Source: a virus
Reading direction: 5' to 3' (one strand)
Virus record (IMG/VR): IMGVR_UViG_3300025117_000061
Coordinates: 1-64,000 of that record
DNA: 64,000 nt
Part shown: positions 13,455-46,734 of the stretch, piece by piece
Position numbering within the stretch: position 1 is the first letter of the stretch
How the letters are laid out: every line of letters starts with the position of its first letter
Notes under the pieces: generated by a model
The model's database searches: none
Seen by the model: only the letters and a program-made list of their open reading frames with translations
What the model was told of the DNA's origin: nothing
Position numbers and translations under genes: made by a program

Positions 13455-14336
13455 GTGAATGAAGAGAGGCAGCGATTCATAGGCGGGTCAGACATTGCGG
13501 CCATCTGTGGGTTGTCTCCCTGGAAGACAGCCTTTCAGGTGTGGCAAGAAAAAGTGGGGGAGTCTGAGGGGCAATCTGACAACGATGCCATGGCGTATGG
13601 TCGGCTCATGGAGTCTGTAATTCGTCAATGGTACAGCAACGAGACGGGAAGAGTGGTTGTCGTTCCAGATACGAAATTGATTCACCCGAAGTACCCGTTC
13701 ATCTGTGCATCTCTGGACGGGATAGCCGATATGAAGCGGATAGTTGAGATCAAGACCACGCGTAGCGGATCTGATTGGGGCGAGCCCGGAAGCGATGAGA
13801 TCCCAGTGTACTATCGGCTTCAAGTCGAACAGTATATGATGATTACCAAGCTTGAGGTGGCAGACGTTCCAGTCAGTGTTGCTGGGTCCATCCCTGTAAT
13901 TTACGAGGTAGAGGCGGACATTGAAATTCAAGAGATGATCGTTGAGCAGGCCGTCTTGTTTTGGGGGATGGTGCAAAGGAGAGAACCTCCTGAGTTAGTT
14001 GGCATTCGGGATGTTGTCGCCAAGTTTGGCCGGTCATCCATGGCGGGATTGGTGACGGCTACGCAAGACACGGAGATGGCAGTTGCTAAGATCAAACAGA
14101 TTCGAGAGGAAATAGACAAACTCAAGAGCGAAGAGGATGCCTTGAAGTTCCTTGCCATGAAGGAAATAGGGGAGAAAGACACTTTGACGGCTATCAACGG
14201 AAGCCTCCTAGCCACGTGGAAGATGTCACGAAGCGGGAAGAAGTTTGACGAAGCGAGTTTCAAGAAAGACAATCCAGAACTGTACGCGAAGTATCTAAAC
14301 GATAAACCTGGGTCCAGGAAATTTTTACTGAAATAG
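13455..14336 (+). CDS. YqaJ-family viral exonuclease (recombination)
   Basis: 293 residues from GTG after GGAGGGGAGAGC. Family motifs are FIGGSDIAAICGLSPWKT (9-25), ESVIRQWY (53-60), SLDGIAD (87-93), EIKT (98-101) and QVEQYM (123-128). The Asp, Glu and Lys of SLDG and EIKT form the PD-(D/E)XK metal site. Such enzymes resect double-stranded DNA 5' to 3' to expose single strands, as lambda Exo does. A lysine-rich C-terminal region (about 205-240) is coiled-coil-like. The annealing protein follows 11 bases later, completing a Red-like pair. Confidence 0.85.
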   Translation: MNEERQRFIGGSDIAAICGLSPWKTAFQVWQEKVGESEGQSDNDAMAYGRLMESVIRQWYSNETGRVVVVPDTKLIHPKYPFICASLDGIADMKRIVEIKTTRSGSDWGEPGSDEIPVYYRLQVEQYMMITKLEVADVPVSVAGSIPVIYEVEADIEIQEMIVEQAVLFWGMVQRREPPELVGIRDVVAKFGRSSMAGLVTATQDTEMAVAKIKQIREEIDKLKSEEDALKFLAMKEIGEKDTLTAINGSLLATWKMSRSGKKFDEASFKKDNPELYAKYLNDKPGSRKFLLK

Positions 14337-14347
14337 GAGAAAAACAC

Positions 14348-15382
14348 ATGAATGAAGTAGCTAATCCATACGGAAACATTGCCGTAACGACTCCGCAAAG
14401 AACCGGAATGGCCGTTGATGTCGAAAGTGCAAGAGCAGTGGCAGAGGTTCAGGCCATGGTGCTCATGGCCAAGAGGTTTCCTAGAGATCCCATTCAGGCC
14501 ACCGAGCGAATCTTGAACGAATGTCAGCGCCAAGGATTGGCAGAAGTGGCTATTTACAGTTACGCAAGGGGTGGCACGGACATTGCTGGCCCATCCATTC
14601 GCCTTGCCGAGGCGATTGCAAGAGCGTGGGGCAATCTTGATGTCGGGGTCAAGGAACTTTCTCAATCCAATGGTCAATCCGAGATGATGTCATATTGTTA
14701 TGACATGGAAACAAACGTCCGGCACGTGAAGCTCTTCACCGTGAAGCACGAGAGGTTTACCAAGAAAGGGTCCTACAAACTCGAAGACCCAAGGGACGTG
14801 TACGAGCAAACCGCAAACCAAGCCGCAAGGCGCCTTCGAGCCGTTATCTTGGCGGCAATCCCAGGAGACGTGATAGAGGCTGCGGTGTCTCAGTGTGAGC
14901 AGACCTTGAAGGCCAAGGCCGACACATCTCCCGAAGCCGTAAAGAAGATGGTTGAGAAATTCTCGGAGATCCAAGTTACGAAAGATCAGATCGAAAAGAG
15001 AATCCAGCGTCGAGTGGACGCCATAACCCCGGCTCAGATCATATCTCTCCGTAAGGTATACAACTCCATCAATGACGGGATGAGCGTGGCTTCTGACTGG
15101 TTTGAAGTTGTGGACGCATCGGAAACCCCGATGGATAATCTTAAGACTGGTACTGAAAAGGCCAAGGAGGCCTTGAAGCGTGGCCGCAAGCCCAAGGATC
15201 AGTCCACAACCGAGCCTACGGGAATTAAGGCAGAACCGGCAGTCGTGGTTGATGAGCCCGACGAGCTGGTTGATTGCCCAAACGGGGACCGGATGAAGGC
15301 GAGTTACTGCAACCAGGGATGCTCAAGCCGCGAAAACTGCCCGGCATGGCCCGAACGCGAGCCCGGTCAAGACAGTGAATAG
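14348..15382 (+). CDS. Phage single-strand annealing-type recombinase (RecT-like, by context)
   Basis: 344 residues after AGGAGAAAAACAC-ATG. The core AKRFPRDPIQATERILNECQ followed by YSYARGGTDIAGPSIRLAEA and QAARRLRAVILAAIPGDVIE belongs to a phage family usually paired with YqaJ exonucleases, which suggests it anneals complementary single strands. A Lys/Pro linker leads to a C-terminal Cys cluster (CPNGDRMKASYCNQGCSSRE). The assignment to annealing proteins rests mainly on the neighbour and on recalled similarity. Confidence 0.65.
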   Translation: MNEVANPYGNIAVTTPQRTGMAVDVESARAVAEVQAMVLMAKRFPRDPIQATERILNECQRQGLAEVAIYSYARGGTDIAGPSIRLAEAIARAWGNLDVGVKELSQSNGQSEMMSYCYDMETNVRHVKLFTVKHERFTKKGSYKLEDPRDVYEQTANQAARRLRAVILAAIPGDVIEAAVSQCEQTLKAKADTSPEAVKKMVEKFSEIQVTKDQIEKRIQRRVDAITPAQIISLRKVYNSINDGMSVASDWFEVVDASETPMDNLKTGTEKAKEALKRGRKPKDQSTTEPTGIKAEPAVVVDEPDELVDCPNGDRMKASYCNQGCSSRENCPAWPEREPGQDSE

Positions 15383-15401
15383 TACAAGGGAGGGACATCC
15401 A

Positions 15402-15863
15402 ATGTCGGTAATTCCAGAATTTGGAGACAACATCACCACGTTTCAACTTGGGTCGCTCATAGAGAGAACCGGGAAGGCACTCCAACAGCTTCCAATGGCA
15501 TCAATCAAGAACGCTGAGGAGTATGCCGTAGAAGCCATCCAGGGGCTTGAAGGCAGGTTAAAGGCCACGCTCCAATACTTGCAGACCTTTGAAGCCAAGG
15601 TTAATGAGATCGAGAGAGAGGCTTATGAGGTAACTGAGGCCGCATATTCCAAGATGTACGAGCATCGCAAGCGGCTTGAGAAGAAACTTTCCGAGCTTCC
15701 AAAGGTCGAATTCCCCAAAAACCTGAACCTCTATGAGCTCAAGAATTTTCTGGATGTAGCCGACAAACTCTGCGCTATGTCTGATCGTTCATGGGAGCGT
15801 CTTGTGAAAATCATGGAACTGTATAACCAAAGACCCGACTCGGTTGTACCAGAAACGGAATAG
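15402..15863 (+). CDS. Coiled-coil protein
   Basis: 153 residues after AAGGGAGGGACATCCA-ATG. Residues 40-110 are a long charged coiled coil (KVNEIEREAYEVTEAAYSKM, then YEHRKRLEKKLSEL). No catalytic motif. Its place after the recombination genes suggests a structural partner for DNA metabolism (inference). Confidence 0.65.
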   Translation: MSVIPEFGDNITTFQLGSLIERTGKALQQLPMASIKNAEEYAVEAIQGLEGRLKATLQYLQTFEAKVNEIEREAYEVTEAAYSKMYEHRKRLEKKLSELPKVEFPKNLNLYELKNFLDVADKLCAMSDRSWERLVKIMELYNQRPDSVVPETE

Positions 15864-15909
15864 CCAACCACGCAATGGCCGGGTCACCACGACCGGCCAA
15901 GGAGGGGAT

Positions 15910-16890
15910 ATGTTGAAGCTTATTGCAGTAGTAACGCCAACGTTTACATACCTGAGCGATTCGGAAGAAAACAGGAATTCACTTAGAACGTCAATTGAAA
16001 AGATGGAATTTGACGGAGCAATTCCACTTTCAACGTTTCATCCCAAGTGGGTTCGTGTAAATCACCTGCCAAAAAATATTCAAGAATGGAAGGCACAGCC
16101 CAACATCAACAAGCGGTGGGAACTCAAAGACAAAGATCTCGCTTCGGACAAGATTCCCCTTGTTCTGTTGCCGGAAGACGTTGGTGAGTACCGTGACGAA
16201 GAATATGATTGGCACTGGAAGGAAGGAATGGACACGTTGAGACCGCTCTATGAGATGCTGTCCGATCCTGCTCCACCCGCGCTGATTAATGTGCCATTCG
16301 AAATCGTTCAACGCATTGATCTTGACGATGTGATTGACTTCAAGGGTTTTAGCTACCCGGTAAAGCGCGACGGGATATGGGACAAGAAAACTACTCCGGT
16401 GACCGACAAAGATGTGAGCCATCAACTTCTTGATCGGATACTCTTCCCGGAAATTGTCCTGGCATCCAGACCGTGCAAGCTTTCATCGAGAGACAGTTAC
16501 GATATCGTCAGGTGCCATGTCCAAAACAACATCGACCCCAAGTATGCCAAGATTACCTCGGACTACGATTTTTGTTTCGCCGTGGAGAAATTGCTTCGAT
16601 ACCACGAGCCGATCCAGTACCAATATGACGCTAATTGGGCCAAGAAACGAGCGAGGCCCAAAATGGTAACGTCATATCGCCAACATCGAACCATGAAGGT
16701 TTTTGAAATGACATGGAGTCCGGAGAACTACAAGGGCTATTCGCCCATCCAGGGATTCCAGGGAGATAGCCATGAAGATCTACACGCCAATATTGAGGCA
16801 TACTTGACGGCACTTATACACGAGATCAACAAACCGATTATGGATTGCCCTACGTGTAAGGGATCTGGCGTAATTGTTGATCCACAATAA
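15910..16890 (+). CDS. Large phage protein, unknown
   Basis: 326 residues after AAGGAGGGGAT-ATG. The centre is rich in Asp, Trp and Tyr (YDWHWKEGMDTLRPLYEMLS), and the end is CPTCKGSGVIVDPQ, a short zinc-knuckle-like turn. No clear nuclease or ATPase motif. It may belong to a conserved phage family near replication genes. Function unknown. Confidence 0.65.
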   Translation: MLKLIAVVTPTFTYLSDSEENRNSLRTSIEKMEFDGAIPLSTFHPKWVRVNHLPKNIQEWKAQPNINKRWELKDKDLASDKIPLVLLPEDVGEYRDEEYDWHWKEGMDTLRPLYEMLSDPAPPALINVPFEIVQRIDLDDVIDFKGFSYPVKRDGIWDKKTTPVTDKDVSHQLLDRILFPEIVLASRPCKLSSRDSYDIVRCHVQNNIDPKYAKITSDYDFCFAVEKLLRYHEPIQYQYDANWAKKRARPKMVTSYRQHRTMKVFEMTWSPENYKGYSPIQGFQGDSHEDLHANIEAYLTALIHEINKPIMDCPTCKGSGVIVDPQ

Positions 16891-17882: not shown

Positions 17883-18033
17883 CCCAGTAACCGTATTCGT
17901 AAACGCCGGCAACGAGATCTGGATACCCAAGAGCCAGATCGAGGATGATTTTGATTGGGACTCTTTTGAGCGCGGCGACATCCTGGACCTCGATATCCCG
18001 GAGTGGCTTGCGGAAGACAAGGGGTTGTGGTGA
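17869..18033 (+). CDS. Small acidic protein (54 residues)
   Basis: ATG preceded by GGAGGATATAA opens MAKSDPVTVFVNAGNEIWIP and an acidic second half (DDFDWDSFERGDILDLDIPE). It ends in a TGATG overlap with the DUF5131 gene, so the two are probably co-translated. No family recognised. Confidence 0.6.
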   Translation: MAKSDPVTVFVNAGNEIWIPKSQIEDDFDWDSFERGDILDLDIPEWLAEDKGLW

Positions 18034-18863
18034 TGAGCGGAAAAACCAATATTGAATGGACGGATTACTCATGGAATCCCATTGTGGGCTGCTCTAAGTG
18101 CAGTCCGGGTTGCCTCAACTGCTACGCCGAGCGCATGGCATGCCGACTCGCGCACATGAATATCAGGGCTTACCAGGACGTGACCGAGGGCGATGAGGAT
18201 AACTGGTTTCGACGCTGGAACGGGAAAACTGAGTTCCGGCCCGAAGAGCTCAAGAAGCCCTTGCGATGGAAAAAACCGCGCCGGATTTTCGTGTGCTCCA
18301 TGGGGGACCTCTTCCACGAGACGGCTGATTTTAAGAATATCCTATCGGTTTTTTCTATCATGGAGCGATGCCGGCAGCACACGTTTGTGGTGCTCACCAA
18401 ACGGCCTCAGCGCATGCTCGATTTCTGCGGTAACTATGGAATTGGGAGCGGTAATGTGTGGCCGTCAAATATATGGGCCGGAGTGACGACCGAGAACCAG
18501 AAGATGGCCGATGAGCGCATTCCGCTCCTCCTTCGGGTTCCGGCGCCAATCCATTTTATTAGCGTCGAGCCAATGCTTTCAGGGGTTAATATCCAAAGGT
18601 ATTTTCGAGGCCACAAAACCGGAGCGGATATTCCGCAAGGATGGTTTCGACTTCACGGGATTGACTGGACCATCTGCGGTTCCGAGACTGGGCCAGGCGC
18701 AAGGCCAATGGCGATTGAGTGGGCAAAATCGCTCCGGGATCAGTGCGTATCGGCAAAGGTTCCTTTTTTCTTCAAAAAAATGATCCTGGCATCAGGTCAA
18801 AAAGAGCACACGCTGAACGGCCAAACGTGGGAGCAATTCCCGGAGGTGCCGCATGGCGAGTAG
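18033..18863 (+). CDS. DUF5131 (phage Gp37/Gp68) family protein
   Basis: 276 residues from ATG in the TGATG overlap. The N-terminus NIEWTDYSWNPIVGCSKCSP then GCLNCYAERMA has the Cys-rich signature of this family, thought to bind an iron-sulfur cluster in a radical-SAM-like fold. Further family blocks are IFVCSMGDLFHE, FVVLTKRPQRM, IWAGVTTENQ, FISVEPML and GSETGPGARPM. The reaction is not known. These genes are common in phages and mobile elements. An HD-type gene follows. Confidence 0.85.
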   Translation: MSGKTNIEWTDYSWNPIVGCSKCSPGCLNCYAERMACRLAHMNIRAYQDVTEGDEDNWFRRWNGKTEFRPEELKKPLRWKKPRRIFVCSMGDLFHETADFKNILSVFSIMERCRQHTFVVLTKRPQRMLDFCGNYGIGSGNVWPSNIWAGVTTENQKMADERIPLLLRVPAPIHFISVEPMLSGVNIQRYFRGHKTGADIPQGWFRLHGIDWTICGSETGPGARPMAIEWAKSLRDQCVSAKVPFFFKKMILASGQKEHTLNGQTWEQFPEVPHGE

Positions 18864-21701: not shown

Positions 21702-23882
21702 ATGGGGCAAATCGAGGAATGGGAATCGTTGTCTGGATTTTTCTCCATGATCCCCCTGGAGGGAAAGCGACCGATTGAAGATAACTGGAGCCAGTGGTGC
21801 CTCAAAAAAAGACCATTCGACCGCAAGGATTTTGAGGGACGTAACGCTGGCGTAGCATGTGGGCCGGCAAGTGGTGTCATTGTTCTTGACATAGACAACT
21901 CTGACCTGTTCAAAGAGCTGCGTGTTGAGCGAGGATGGGATGTTCCTGAAACATTAATCATTAAGACTGGTAAGGGTTTCCATCTTTATTTTGAATATGG
22001 TCAGAATGGAAAACGTTATGGTTGCACATCATTCAAAGATCCCAAGGGCCGCCTTGATGAAAAAGGCAAGCCAATCACCGTCTTCGATGTTAGAGGGATT
22101 GGTGGTCAAGTTGTCGCACAAGGATCAATTCATCCCGTTACGGGAAAACCATACTCCGTATTTAGGTCTACTACAATCAAACCTTGCCCAAAGTGGATAC
22201 TTGATCTGGTTGTCGAAGAGGATGCTCCTAGATATGTCCATTCAATCCGTTTAGCTTCAGCGTGGACTGGAGATATTTCCGATCTCCCTATCTCGAAAGA
22301 AGTCAAGGACAAGATCCTGAATGGTGGTGATAAAGGTGAACGTTCCGAATTTATTATGAGTGTTGTTAATGCTTTGGTTTTTGCCAATCTCACCGATGCA
22401 CAAATCCAAGATGTTTTCGAGAATTACGCAATAGGAAATAAGTATCGAGAAAAAGGACGTGGTAAAACCAAATGGCTTGGCAGACACATTCAGAAAGCCC
22501 GCTCATTTGTGACGGAAAGATATGACGATCAACAAAATGATTCTTGCTACAAAGATAGGCCTTATGTGAGTGAGAGAGTAAAAACAAATATTAACATTTT
22601 ATCTAATACAGATAATTGCAATGGGGATGCCAATTGTGAGGTACCAAACCATGAAGCCAATACAGAGGTTGCAAACCAAGAGCCAGAGCCAATAGAAAAT
22701 TTTGACGACAAAAGACGACGTGAGACGACACTTGACGACACCGTGACGACAGAAAGACGACAACTTGAAAATGATAACGGAATCAGCAAGTTACTAAAAC
22801 AATCAGGGATTCCCGACCAAGATGTTATCAATCTATTGGAAATCGTTGACAAAACATGCGAACGAGAGTTTGACGCTCCCTATCTGGAAAATCTCTGTCG
22901 TCAACTTGTCGTCACGTTGTCGTCGGATGTCGTCAGCCGTCGTCTTGTATCCTCGTGTCGTCAAGTGTCGTCAAAATTGGTTGATGACGTGAGAGGTTGG
23001 GTTTTCTCGGCTGATGGAGAATTTTCCATCAACGATATTTACCGCGATCTCTGCATTACCTCACGGGACGTAAAGAAAAATACTTCAAAATGCCTTGAGC
23101 GCATACAACAAGAAGGCTTGATCGAGAAGGTTGGTTCAAAGCGGGGATCTTTTAGGTTGGTGCAAGGCGAATGTGAAGAGATTGATTTCTGGAATGAGTC
23201 GGGCGGATCAATGAGCCTCTTGTGGCCGTTCGGCATTGAGTCGTTGGCCAAGATTTACCCTGGAAATATCATCGTTATCGCAGGTGAGAGCAACGCCGGG
23301 AAGACGGGGTTCCTTCTCAACTTTGTTGCCAAAAACATGTGGAAGCACAAGATCCATTTTTTCTCTTCTGAAACCAAGAAGCAGGAGCTCCATGGTAGAT
23401 TGAAAGACTTTGCCTCTGTCGGTGTAGATCTTCAAGAATGGAAACGAGCAAGGGACGCAGGGCAAGTCACGTTTTTTGAGAGGGACTGCAACTTTTCCGA
23501 CGTGATCCGTCCCGGTATTGGTAACATCAACATAATAGACTTTCTTGAGGTTTATGAAGACTTCTACAAGGTTGGCAGGTACTTCTTTGAGATATACCGG
23601 AAGTTGGAAGGTGCCATAGCGATCATCGCAATTCAGAAAAATCAGGAGCAGAGCCACGGACTCGGAGGCGCGCGAAGCATAGAGAAGGCGCGGCTTTATC
23701 TGTCTATTGGTTACAGGTGGGCTCAACTCATGAAAGTGAAGGAGCCGGTTAGACCTTTCCCGTTGGGTGAGCATCCAGACAAGCATGCCATCAATTTTGA
23801 TTATATTGGAGGGTGTGATTATTGCGTTACTAAGTCGTGGTTTAAGCCAAAGAATCAAGATGATATAAAGCCAAAAAAATAA
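21702..23882 (+). CDS. Primase-polymerase/helicase fusion protein
   Basis: 726 residues. Residues about 10-175 are a primase-polymerase (AEP) domain: GVACGPASGVIVLDIDNSDL with the catalytic DxD (63-65), GKGFHLYFEY, and a late RGIGGQVVAQGSIHP block. After a helical region and a charged linker, a winged helix spans about 430-490, and a RecA/DnaB-type ATPase follows with Walker A GESNAGKT (528-535). It should make primers and unwind DNA at the fork. The linker codons at 335-353 and 399-424 are made of phased GACGAC and GTCGTC repeats, a likely origin. The start follows the nuclease stop by one base. Confidence 0.85.
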   Translation: MGQIEEWESLSGFFSMIPLEGKRPIEDNWSQWCLKKRPFDRKDFEGRNAGVACGPASGVIVLDIDNSDLFKELRVERGWDVPETLIIKTGKGFHLYFEYGQNGKRYGCTSFKDPKGRLDEKGKPITVFDVRGIGGQVVAQGSIHPVTGKPYSVFRSTTIKPCPKWILDLVVEEDAPRYVHSIRLASAWTGDISDLPISKEVKDKILNGGDKGERSEFIMSVVNALVFANLTDAQIQDVFENYAIGNKYREKGRGKTKWLGRHIQKARSFVTERYDDQQNDSCYKDRPYVSERVKTNINILSNTDNCNGDANCEVPNHEANTEVANQEPEPIENFDDKRRRETTLDDTVTTERRQLENDNGISKLLKQSGIPDQDVINLLEIVDKTCEREFDAPYLENLCRQLVVTLSSDVVSRRLVSSCRQVSSKLVDDVRGWVFSADGEFSINDIYRDLCITSRDVKKNTSKCLERIQQEGLIEKVGSKRGSFRLVQGECEEIDFWNESGGSMSLLWPFGIESLAKIYPGNIIVIAGESNAGKTGFLLNFVAKNMWKHKIHFFSSETKKQELHGRLKDFASVGVDLQEWKRARDAGQVTFFERDCNFSDVIRPGIGNINIIDFLEVYEDFYKVGRYFFEIYRKLEGAIAIIAIQKNQEQSHGLGGARSIEKARLYLSIGYRWAQLMKVKEPVRPFPLGEHPDKHAINFDYIGGCDYCVTKSWFKPKNQDDIKPKK
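22704..22972. other. Candidate replication origin: two inverted arrays of phased repeats
   Basis: GACGAC occurs at 22704, 22714, 22724, 22734, 22745 and 22756. Its reverse complement GTCGTC occurs at 22897, 22908, 22919, 22929, 22939, 22957 and 22967. Within each array the spacing is 10-11 bp (one 18 bp step), so all copies face one side of the helix. The arrays point in opposite directions and flank 135 bp. Such iterons inside an initiator gene are a known origin style, as in lambda O. Activity is inference. Confidence 0.55.
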
Positions 23883-24338: not shown

Positions 24339-24596
24339 GTGTACCAATTTGACGGCCTGACCATTGACGAGGCAAAACGCGCCGTGAATTATGGCGTCAA
24401 CGCCGTGAGGAATTCCAAGGGGGCATTTGAGTGCTATTGTGATTTTGATCCAAAAGATGGTCCTGATCGTTGTGAAATTGACAAGGGAACCCCTGAATTT
24501 TGCGTATATGCTGGGAACTTAGTCAAGAAAGGTTCCGATCAGTGGTCTTGTGTTTACTGGAGGGCCATTCCCGATGGAGAGAAGGAGGATGTGTGA
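24339..24596 (+). CDS. Small Cys-containing protein with a doubtful start
   Basis: 85 residues from GTG. FECYCDFDPKDGPDRCEIDK and EFCVYAGNL give several cysteines. The nearest strong ribosome site (GGAAGG) fits ATG 24329, whose frame reads MSDSVPI and stops. Deleting one base between would join MSD to VYQFDGLTIDEAK. The N-terminus may therefore be shifted by an indel. The stop overlaps the SSB start. Confidence 0.55.
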   Translation: MYQFDGLTIDEAKRAVNYGVNAVRNSKGAFECYCDFDPKDGPDRCEIDKGTPEFCVYAGNLVKKGSDQWSCVYWRAIPDGEKEDV

Positions 24597-25099
24597 TGCC
24601 AAATTTATTATGTGCTCTGCGTAGAATTGACCAACCAACCACGATCCAGGAGATGGTGGAAGTCAAGAAGTACGAGATGGCCTTCATTGCGGGTCATTGT
24701 GGGAAAGATCCATCTACACGAACAACGGCTGGCGGGAAGTCGATCACGTCTGTATCGGTTGCAGTTAGTTGGGGCAAGCGTGGTGAGCCCGACCAGAAGA
24801 CGGAGTGGGTGGAAATTTTGGCGTGGGAGAACCAAAGTGAGATCCTGAGTCAATTCAAGAAAGGCGATGCAATTATGGCTGCGGGGAAGCTTTCTCTTAA
24901 CCGTTGGACCGGGAATGACGGTGTTGAGCGGGTTGCCGGCCAGATCACGGCATGGGAGATTGCAAAACCAAAGCGTGTTCAACGAGATCAGCCTCCCCAA
25001 CAACAAATCCAGTCGTCCGGCGCAACCACTTCCGGGCCAGGTAGCCAAGTCGGGATGCCTCCTGCGGGCGGTGGGGATAGTGAGGGAATCCCGTTTTGA
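24596..25099 (+). CDS. ssb: Single-stranded DNA-binding protein
   Basis: 167 residues from ATG after GGAGGATGTGTG. An OB-fold-type N-terminal domain is visible (FIAGHCGKDPSTRTTAGGKS, VSVAVSWGKRG, TEWVEILAWENQSEILSQF, KKGDAIMAAGKLSLNRW), then a Gln/Gly/Pro-rich linker and the acidic tip DSEGIPF. SSB coats single strands at forks and its tip recruits partners. It sits among replication genes. The first 25 residues before the OB core are longer than usual. Confidence 0.85.
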   Translation: MPNLLCALRRIDQPTTIQEMVEVKKYEMAFIAGHCGKDPSTRTTAGGKSITSVSVAVSWGKRGEPDQKTEWVEILAWENQSEILSQFKKGDAIMAAGKLSLNRWTGNDGVERVAGQITAWEIAKPKRVQRDQPPQQQIQSSGATTSGPGSQVGMPPAGGGDSEGIPF

Positions 25100-25123
25100 T
25101 TGGCAAAAGAAAGGAGAGGAATC

Positions 25124-25447
25124 ATGACCAAGAAACAATGGATTGACCGAGTGGCAGCCTTTATGGATTGCCCGAAGGTCCGCGCTAAGTGGCTGTGGAA
25201 TTTCCTGTCTACGGAGAATGCTTCGGCGCTTTCCTTTCCTCACGGTGACGGGGTGGTTCCCGTTCCAGGCATCGGCAAGATTCGGCGCAAGTATCGGCGG
25301 CCAACGACGAAGCGGAATCCCAACACGGGGGAGGCTATCGAGGTCCCTGCGCGCCTAGTGGCCGCGCTTCGGGAGAGTGCCGAGTTCAAGGCGTTTATGA
25401 ATCCCGAGAGCGCGTCAATCGTCGGGTTGGCTAAGAGGGGGGAGTGA
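25124..25447 (+). CDS. HU/IHF-like DNA-binding protein
   Basis: 107 residues after AAGGAGAGGAATC-ATG. VPVPGIGKIRRKYRRPTTKR and NPNTGEAIEVPARLVAALRE correspond to the beta arm and following region of HU/IHF proteins (compare the RNPxTGE signature). The N-terminal helices are present but divergent. It could bend DNA at the origin or during packaging. Confidence 0.7.
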   Translation: MTKKQWIDRVAAFMDCPKVRAKWLWNFLSTENASALSFPHGDGVVPVPGIGKIRRKYRRPTTKRNPNTGEAIEVPARLVAALRESAEFKAFMNPESASIVGLAKRGE

Positions 25448-46611: not shown

Positions 46612-46734
46612 ATGGCAAAAAAGTGCATGATGGGTGGTGGTGCGGGAATGCCGAAGGACAAGAAAATGCGGTCAGGCGGCAAGAAGAAGCAGGGTGGAAA
46701 GAAGCAGGGTGGAAAGAAGCAGGGGAAGTCGTAA
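46612..46734 (+). CDS. Small basic Lys/Gly repeat protein
   Basis: 40 residues after AAAGGAGAGATGTAAC-ATG. MAKKCMMGGGAGMPKDKKMR, then KKKQGG-type repeats coded by a 15-base tandem repeat (46684-46725, about 2.8 copies). Similar Lys/Gly-rich peptides occur near terminase genes. It may bind DNA non-specifically. Confidence 0.5.
   Translation: MAKKCMMGGGAGMPKDKKMRSGGKKKQGGKKQGGKKQGKS

Follow-up and report, generated by a model that had tools for sequence, protein, structure and literature searches.

In the window, a 64,000-nt stretch of a viral genome record, two inverted arrays of short, helically phased repeats lie inside the gene of a putative initiator primase-helicase. We propose that these repeats are iterons recognised by the winged-helix domain (wHTH) of the same protein and constitute the core of a replication origin located within the gene, a reading to which we assign a probability of about four in five. 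The parts of this proposal with support at the sequence level are the phased arrays, the use of one specific word per virus and the covariation of that word with the putative recognition helix of the wHTH.

Phased repeats inside a primase-helicase gene

The putative initiator is encoded by a plus-strand ORF (21702..23882) of 726 aa, in which a PrimPol domain is followed by a linker, a winged helix and a RecA/DnaB-C/KaiC-like ATPase. Pfam detected Prim-Pol in the N-terminal part (E 8.9e-20) and a DnaB_C/KaiC-like P-loop at residues 512-582, and the PHROG matches of the gene product were DNA primase and DnaB-like helicase. A sequence search against solved structures returned no convincing relative. 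In an AlphaFold2 model of residues 420-726 (pLDDT 93.1), the winged helix is positioned right after the right array. The wHTH (residues ~421-488; 22962..23165, plus strand) is predicted to adopt an H1-S1-H2-H3-wing order, and when modelled alone (pLDDT 85.8) its PDB matches were winged-helix proteins with Z up to 9.5, which is evidence of fold only. H3 (residues 455-470; 23064..23111, plus strand; model residues 36-51) is the modelled recognition helix, with R455, K459, S462 and K463 as predicted specificity residues based on covariation, and its codons in the window fall outside the repeats. The RecA-fold ATPase domain (residues ~500-715; 23199..23846, plus strand) has KaiC and Twinkle/DnaB-type proteins as its nearest folds. 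The initiator gene is flanked by genes for a RecE-like exonuclease, a phrog_3657 protein, an SSB and a phrog_379 DNA-binding protein (window 13455-16890 and 24500-25447), and the genes around it constitute a replication/recombination block. A DUF5131/phrog_2045 protein (E 6e-80) is encoded at window 18003-18863.

An earlier note on this DNA had listed six GACGAC and seven GTCGTC copies spaced by 10-11 bp with a single 18-bp step, the two arrays being opposed around 135 bp and every copy facing the same side of the helix. All 13 copies were found where it had placed them (22704-22761 and 22897-22972), and recomputation returned the same steps and a gap of 135 bp between the hexamers. The left array, six copies of (T)GACGAC(A) on the plus strand (22703..22762), has steps of 10, 10, 10, 11 and 11 bp, while the right array, seven copies of TGACGAC(A) read on the minus strand (22896..22973), has steps of 11, 11, 10, 10, 18 and 10 bp; both (22703-22973) fall within the putative initiator gene. 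The single helix face holds for 11 of the 13 copies and fails for the last two of the right array, which the 18-bp step shifts by ~0.3 turn. Phasing of the left array is tight (vector length 0.96 at 10.25-10.5 bp per turn). The conserved unit is the 8-mer TGACGACA rather than the hexamer first described. When the whole 76,110-bp record was scanned for phased arrays, these two scored 5.5 and 4.5 and everything else at most 2.4, making them the only strong phased arrays of the record.

The window linker is charged and of low complexity and the steps appear tandem, as would be expected of a protein repeat or a slippage expansion without DNA function. A repeat at the protein level needs steps divisible by 3, however, whereas steps of 10 and 11 switch the frame at every copy, so that the arrays are not of peptide-repeat making; the codon phases (0,1,2,0,2,1 on the left and 1,0,2,0,1,1,2 on the right) cover all three reading frames. 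The linker peptide (DDKRRRETTLDDTVTTERRQ; CRQLVVTLSSDVVSRR) is the DNA word translated in three frames. Nor was the pattern reproduced by 5000 synonymous-codon shuffles with protein and codon usage held constant, which gave on average 2.3 and at most 8 GACGAC/GTCGTC words in the gene against the 13 observed. In relatives, copies occur outside genes and covary with a distant helix (see below). A linker repeat lacking any DNA function is thus highly improbable, and protein repetition or codon slippage as the source of the arrays was rejected, being refuted by the use of all frames and by the non-coding copies.

The 133-bp spacer between the arrays (22763..22895) has 61% AT against 48.5% for the record and is a possible opening region. 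Within the gene, the AT content of 60-mers peaks at 77% (22563..22622), ~80 bp to the left of the left array, and this stretch may be an alternative one. A 27-nt direct repeat (74%), in frame with a period of 27, lies directly upstream of the left array (window 22626-22679).

Spacing and form of the repeats in relatives

A search of viral contigs with the single protein returned zero relatives, and an alignment of four relatives used as the query retrieved 56 viral and 28 genome loci. Viruses and prophage-like contigs of MAGs contributed the 83 non-redundant homologous loci surveyed. Methanosarcina virus MetMV and Methanomicrobiales virus vir555, both matched by tblastn, carry ...CCACAA and GTTGAA repeats, respectively, at the corresponding place. 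A short word phased at 10/11 bp was present in or beside the gene at 50 of the 83 loci (chain score at least 2.8), while control steps of 7/8, 13/14 and 16/17 bp gave 1, 0 and 0 loci; an 8/9-step scan gave 21 because the steps allowed there include 9 and 10. The repeat spacing, whose conservation in related phages the earlier note had wished to see compared, is thus shared across many different words, and no relative was seen in which an identical linker protein was encoded by other codons without repeats.

Many genes share a common plan of about 4 copies, a spacer near 226 bp and then 4 to 6 further copies. Direct repeats make up 19 of the 24 two-array loci (median spacer 226 bp), and the arrays are inverted in the window and in L004, a locus retrieved by a DNA-pattern search that carries a homologous gene and the identical word. 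Words vary between viruses and, when oriented alike, nearly all fit N5-ACA; the iteron register was selected to fit ACA, which is nonetheless fully conserved in most arrays. The word TGACGACA is used in the window, L003, L004, L024 and L088, and others include TGTCTACA, TGTCAACA, TGTCCACA, GCGTTACA, CCTTACA, CGTGACA and ACCACA. The spacers of gene-embedded arrays are on average only 3 points richer in AT than their own genes. Several relatives of 320-350 aa (e.g. L012, L014, L018, L031, L038 and L046) consist of wHTH and ATPase only; with PrimPol lying outside that ORF, the wHTH-ATPase together with its iterons looks like the core unit.

The arrays are not confined to the initiator gene. In L003, retrieved by the DNA word alone, they are non-coding and at least 9 kb from the initiator, and flank 203 bp at 70% AT (genome 54% AT). 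L014 has no gene array but two inverted TTCTACA arrays elsewhere in the record, with a 342-bp spacer of 74% AT that holds no ORF, and in L018 the TGTCCACA copies lie outside any ORF; in all three loci the arrays are far from the initiator gene. For about seven relatives that lack a gene array (L012, L019, L023, L032, L053, L054 and L055), scanning the whole record revealed no convincing one, and some of the records without an array may be fragments.

The TGACGACA pattern also occurs in L005, L007, L008 and L009, in whose contigs a homologous initiator was not found, and in L006, where initiator matches were weak only. At L006:166-345 and L007:2738-2966, TTGACGACAGC or GTGTCGTCACG words follow one another in 11-bp steps without a clear initiator homologue, and another system may use similar phased repeats there. 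A long array with a 10-bp period (TCTGACGACA/TCTAACGACA units) lies in or next to a gene end at L009:4220-4640, in a viral contig; a homologue of the initiator was looked for in this record and not found. The circular 67,826-bp MetMV record (MK170447; L096/L097) has an exact 8,697-bp terminal duplication with a period of 59,129 and contains the primase gene twice; its unit genome may therefore measure 59.1 kb. The MetMV authors describe 8,697-bp direct terminal repeats; their paper makes no mention of a primase, a helicase or an origin of replication (PMC7164591).

Covariation of the repeat word with the predicted recognition helix

Covariation was analysed at 43 non-redundant loci, for which the four bases before ACA were compared. 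Iteron similarity had no relation to RecA identity (rho 0.05, 43 loci). After RecA identity was regressed out, residue 462 was the best column of the whole wHTH-RecA region (r 0.58), followed by residues 459 (r 0.45), 466 (r 0.24) and 463 (r 0.23), while RecA columns in the same test had a mean of 0 and a standard deviation of 0.037; a partial Mantel comparison of iteron with helix H3 gave r 0.33 (p 2e-4, 43 loci). These four residues make up a single face of H3 and are encoded mostly by sequence outside the repeats. Lysine at 463 was accompanied by G at N1, directly before ACA, at 7/7 loci (Fisher 2.5e-5) and arginine at 462 by G at N3 at 14/15 (p 1.2e-7), both p-values treating loci as independent, which pairs of related viruses are not fully. 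Furthermore, I/V463 went with T at N1 (14 of 17 loci), S462 with C at N2 (15 of 16) and K/R459 with G at N4 (18 of 21). These residue-base pairings are chemically sensible. In a leave-one-out prediction by nearest neighbour, five helix residues recovered 65% of iteron bases, compared with 30% for the nearest neighbour in RecA, 33% for random pairs and at most 44% for five random variable RecA columns. Associations of residues 436, 443, 446, 452 and 453 were discarded because in many relatives the right array doubles as the coding sequence for this part of the wHTH, and R455 was weighted little, since it adjoins the last iteron in many of them.

L003, a locus outside this sample, follows the same pairing: its initiator has R455, K459, S462 and K463 (ITDRGSKKNISKILERL), exactly the residues common to the TGACGACA viruses. 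In addition, H462 accompanies CCTTACA in L051 and likewise in L073. The word of each virus therefore changes along with the helix of its own protein, suggesting that the repeats are very probably landing sites and favouring the winged-helix part as their reader, a possibility already raised for the window. A helix-to-iteron code appears legible from the alignments, with R predicting G at N3, K predicting G at N1 and I/V predicting T at N1.

Since the loci are related to one another, and most have the array next to the wHTH, word and helix might instead have been co-inherited by descent and be associated by chance, without direct recognition. This is quite unlikely: the word is uncorrelated with RecA identity, the signal is confined to residues 459, 462, 463 and 466 of one helix, the L003 arrays lie at a great distance from the gene, and both word and helix differ within pairs whose RecA domains are 81-85% identical (L031/L038, L031/L046 and L071/L080). 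The pair L071/L080 consists of two contigs from a single Syntrophaceae MAG and the pair L031/L038 of viral loci; RecA identity is 84-85% within each pair, yet the words (TGTCTACA versus GCGTTACA) and recognition helices are different. Nucleotide identity is high in the ATPase half and falls across the arrays, the wHTH and the N-terminal part, which looks like the exchange of a specificity cassette. Specificity thus seems to be re-keyed by a joint swap of helix and iterons, and L071/L080, with ATPases 85% identical and different wHTH and iterons, suggest two compatible related elements in one host.

Origin reading and comparison with known systems

An origin inside its own initiator gene, as the earlier note had put forward, is supported by the spacing in relatives and by the helix covariation; actual binding, ring assembly, strand opening, priming and origin firing are what we infer. 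In the proposed mechanism, several initiator protomers would bind to a single face of each array and use their recognition helices to read the constant ACA as well as the five variable bases. Array binding would gather the RecA-type ATPase domains, probably into one ring per array, AT-rich DNA nearby would open, and the helicase with its fused PrimPol would prime synthesis. Among the features of iteron origins, multiple direct copies at one place of the genome and a spacing of about one helical turn are present. DNA beside the arrays is clearly AT-rich in L003 (70%) and L014 (74%) and only moderately so in the window (61%). Cumulative GC skew, which had been suggested as a check, gave no support, being monotonic around the site in the window. 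In MetMV and vir555 the skew tracks gene direction, and its minima fall 4.3 kb from the arrays, where gene direction switches. Skew was thus dropped as origin evidence for all three, as it mirrors gene direction, and it neither helps nor refutes the origin reading.

The wHTH might bind the arrays mainly for the regulation of its own gene, through autorepression or control of copy number, and not for the start of replication. Initiators often autoregulate, and the word-helix covariation fits this equally well. However, the window arrays lie ~1 kb inside the gene and not at a promoter, those of L003, L014 and L018 are far from it, the L003 and L014 arrays flanking AT-rich non-coding DNA, and in initiators, binding normally goes hand in hand with origin function; we consider autoregulation as the main role unlikely. 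A packaging (pac) or partition site is very unlikely. The pac site of phage P1 consists of hexamers within pacA, the gene of its binding protein, which the two hexamer arrays in the window resemble, but here the host gene encodes a primase-helicase, whose own helix the specificity follows, and the gene for the large terminase subunit, at 46634, lies at a distance of 24 kb. The intragenic or gene-distant position of the arrays, their AT-rich surroundings in L003 and L014 and the distance to the terminase gene make both alternatives less likely than a replication origin.

Taken together, these data allow one joint reading, which we hold tentatively and at slightly less than even odds. Tailed viruses of archaea and bacteria would include a widespread class using an initiator helicase-primase that assembles itself on one DNA face via 4-8 phased N5-ACA iterons, which are usually written, in three frames, into the sequence coding for the initiator's own DNA-binding domain. 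Exchange of the wHTH and iterons as one cassette would re-key origin specificity and allow related elements of one host (L071 and L080) to keep separate origin identities, and the code would be readable from sequence.

Our search of the open-access literature turned up no description of phased N5-ACA iterons, of an intragenic origin with this PrimPol-wHTH-RecA initiator class or of a helix-to-iteron code. Origins are rarely known in viruses of uncultured archaea and bacteria, methane-cycling archaea included, and a probable origin can here be located by sequence alone in dozens of viruses. Origin specificity, the incompatibility of related elements and the cost of binding sites within coding sequence become directly testable, and the findings may aid in building replicons for methanogens.

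MecI/BlaI and Fur/PerR are dimeric repressors acting on palindromes; these and other winged-helix proteins share the DNA-reading fold of the wHTH at low sequence identity, a similarity of fold only. Phage lambda has four 18-bp palindromic-type iterons, and its O protein is neither an ATPase nor a primase. Iteron origins and origins within initiator genes are already known, the lambda origin lying inside gene O, its own initiator (PMC6022878, PMC7466680). As in lambda, the iteron arrays here are embedded in the coding sequence of their own putative initiator; different from lambda, they consist of 8-bp N5-ACA iterons with a 10-11 bp step, form two arrays and are not always intragenic, and the initiator is fused to PrimPol and a RecA ATPase. 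For PrimPol proteins, the winged helix was proposed earlier as an origin recogniser (accessible text of PMC5862659). The pRN1 ORF904-type replicon likewise combines PrimPol, ATPase and winged helix in a single protein, with an SF3 helicase and a 100-nt stem-loop downstream of the gene as its origin (accessible text of PMC4234260), and the accessible text of these two papers reports no phased iterons for pRN1. In contrast, the ATPase here matches DnaB_C/KaiC, not SF3, and the arrays are phased direct repeats instead of a stem-loop origin. In SaPI Rep/ori and SCCmec Cch2, short iterons are recognised by the DNA-binding domain of an initiator-helicase, for which a model of two hexamers was proposed (PMC7581432), and the loci described here share with them the short iterons and their predicted recognition by such a domain. 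In SaPI/SCCmec, the ori is found immediately downstream of the gene, and the helicases, which are DUF927 or D5-like, carry their DNA-binding domain at the C-terminus, whereas here the wHTH precedes a RecA/KaiC/DnaB-type ATPase and the arrays lie mostly within the gene.
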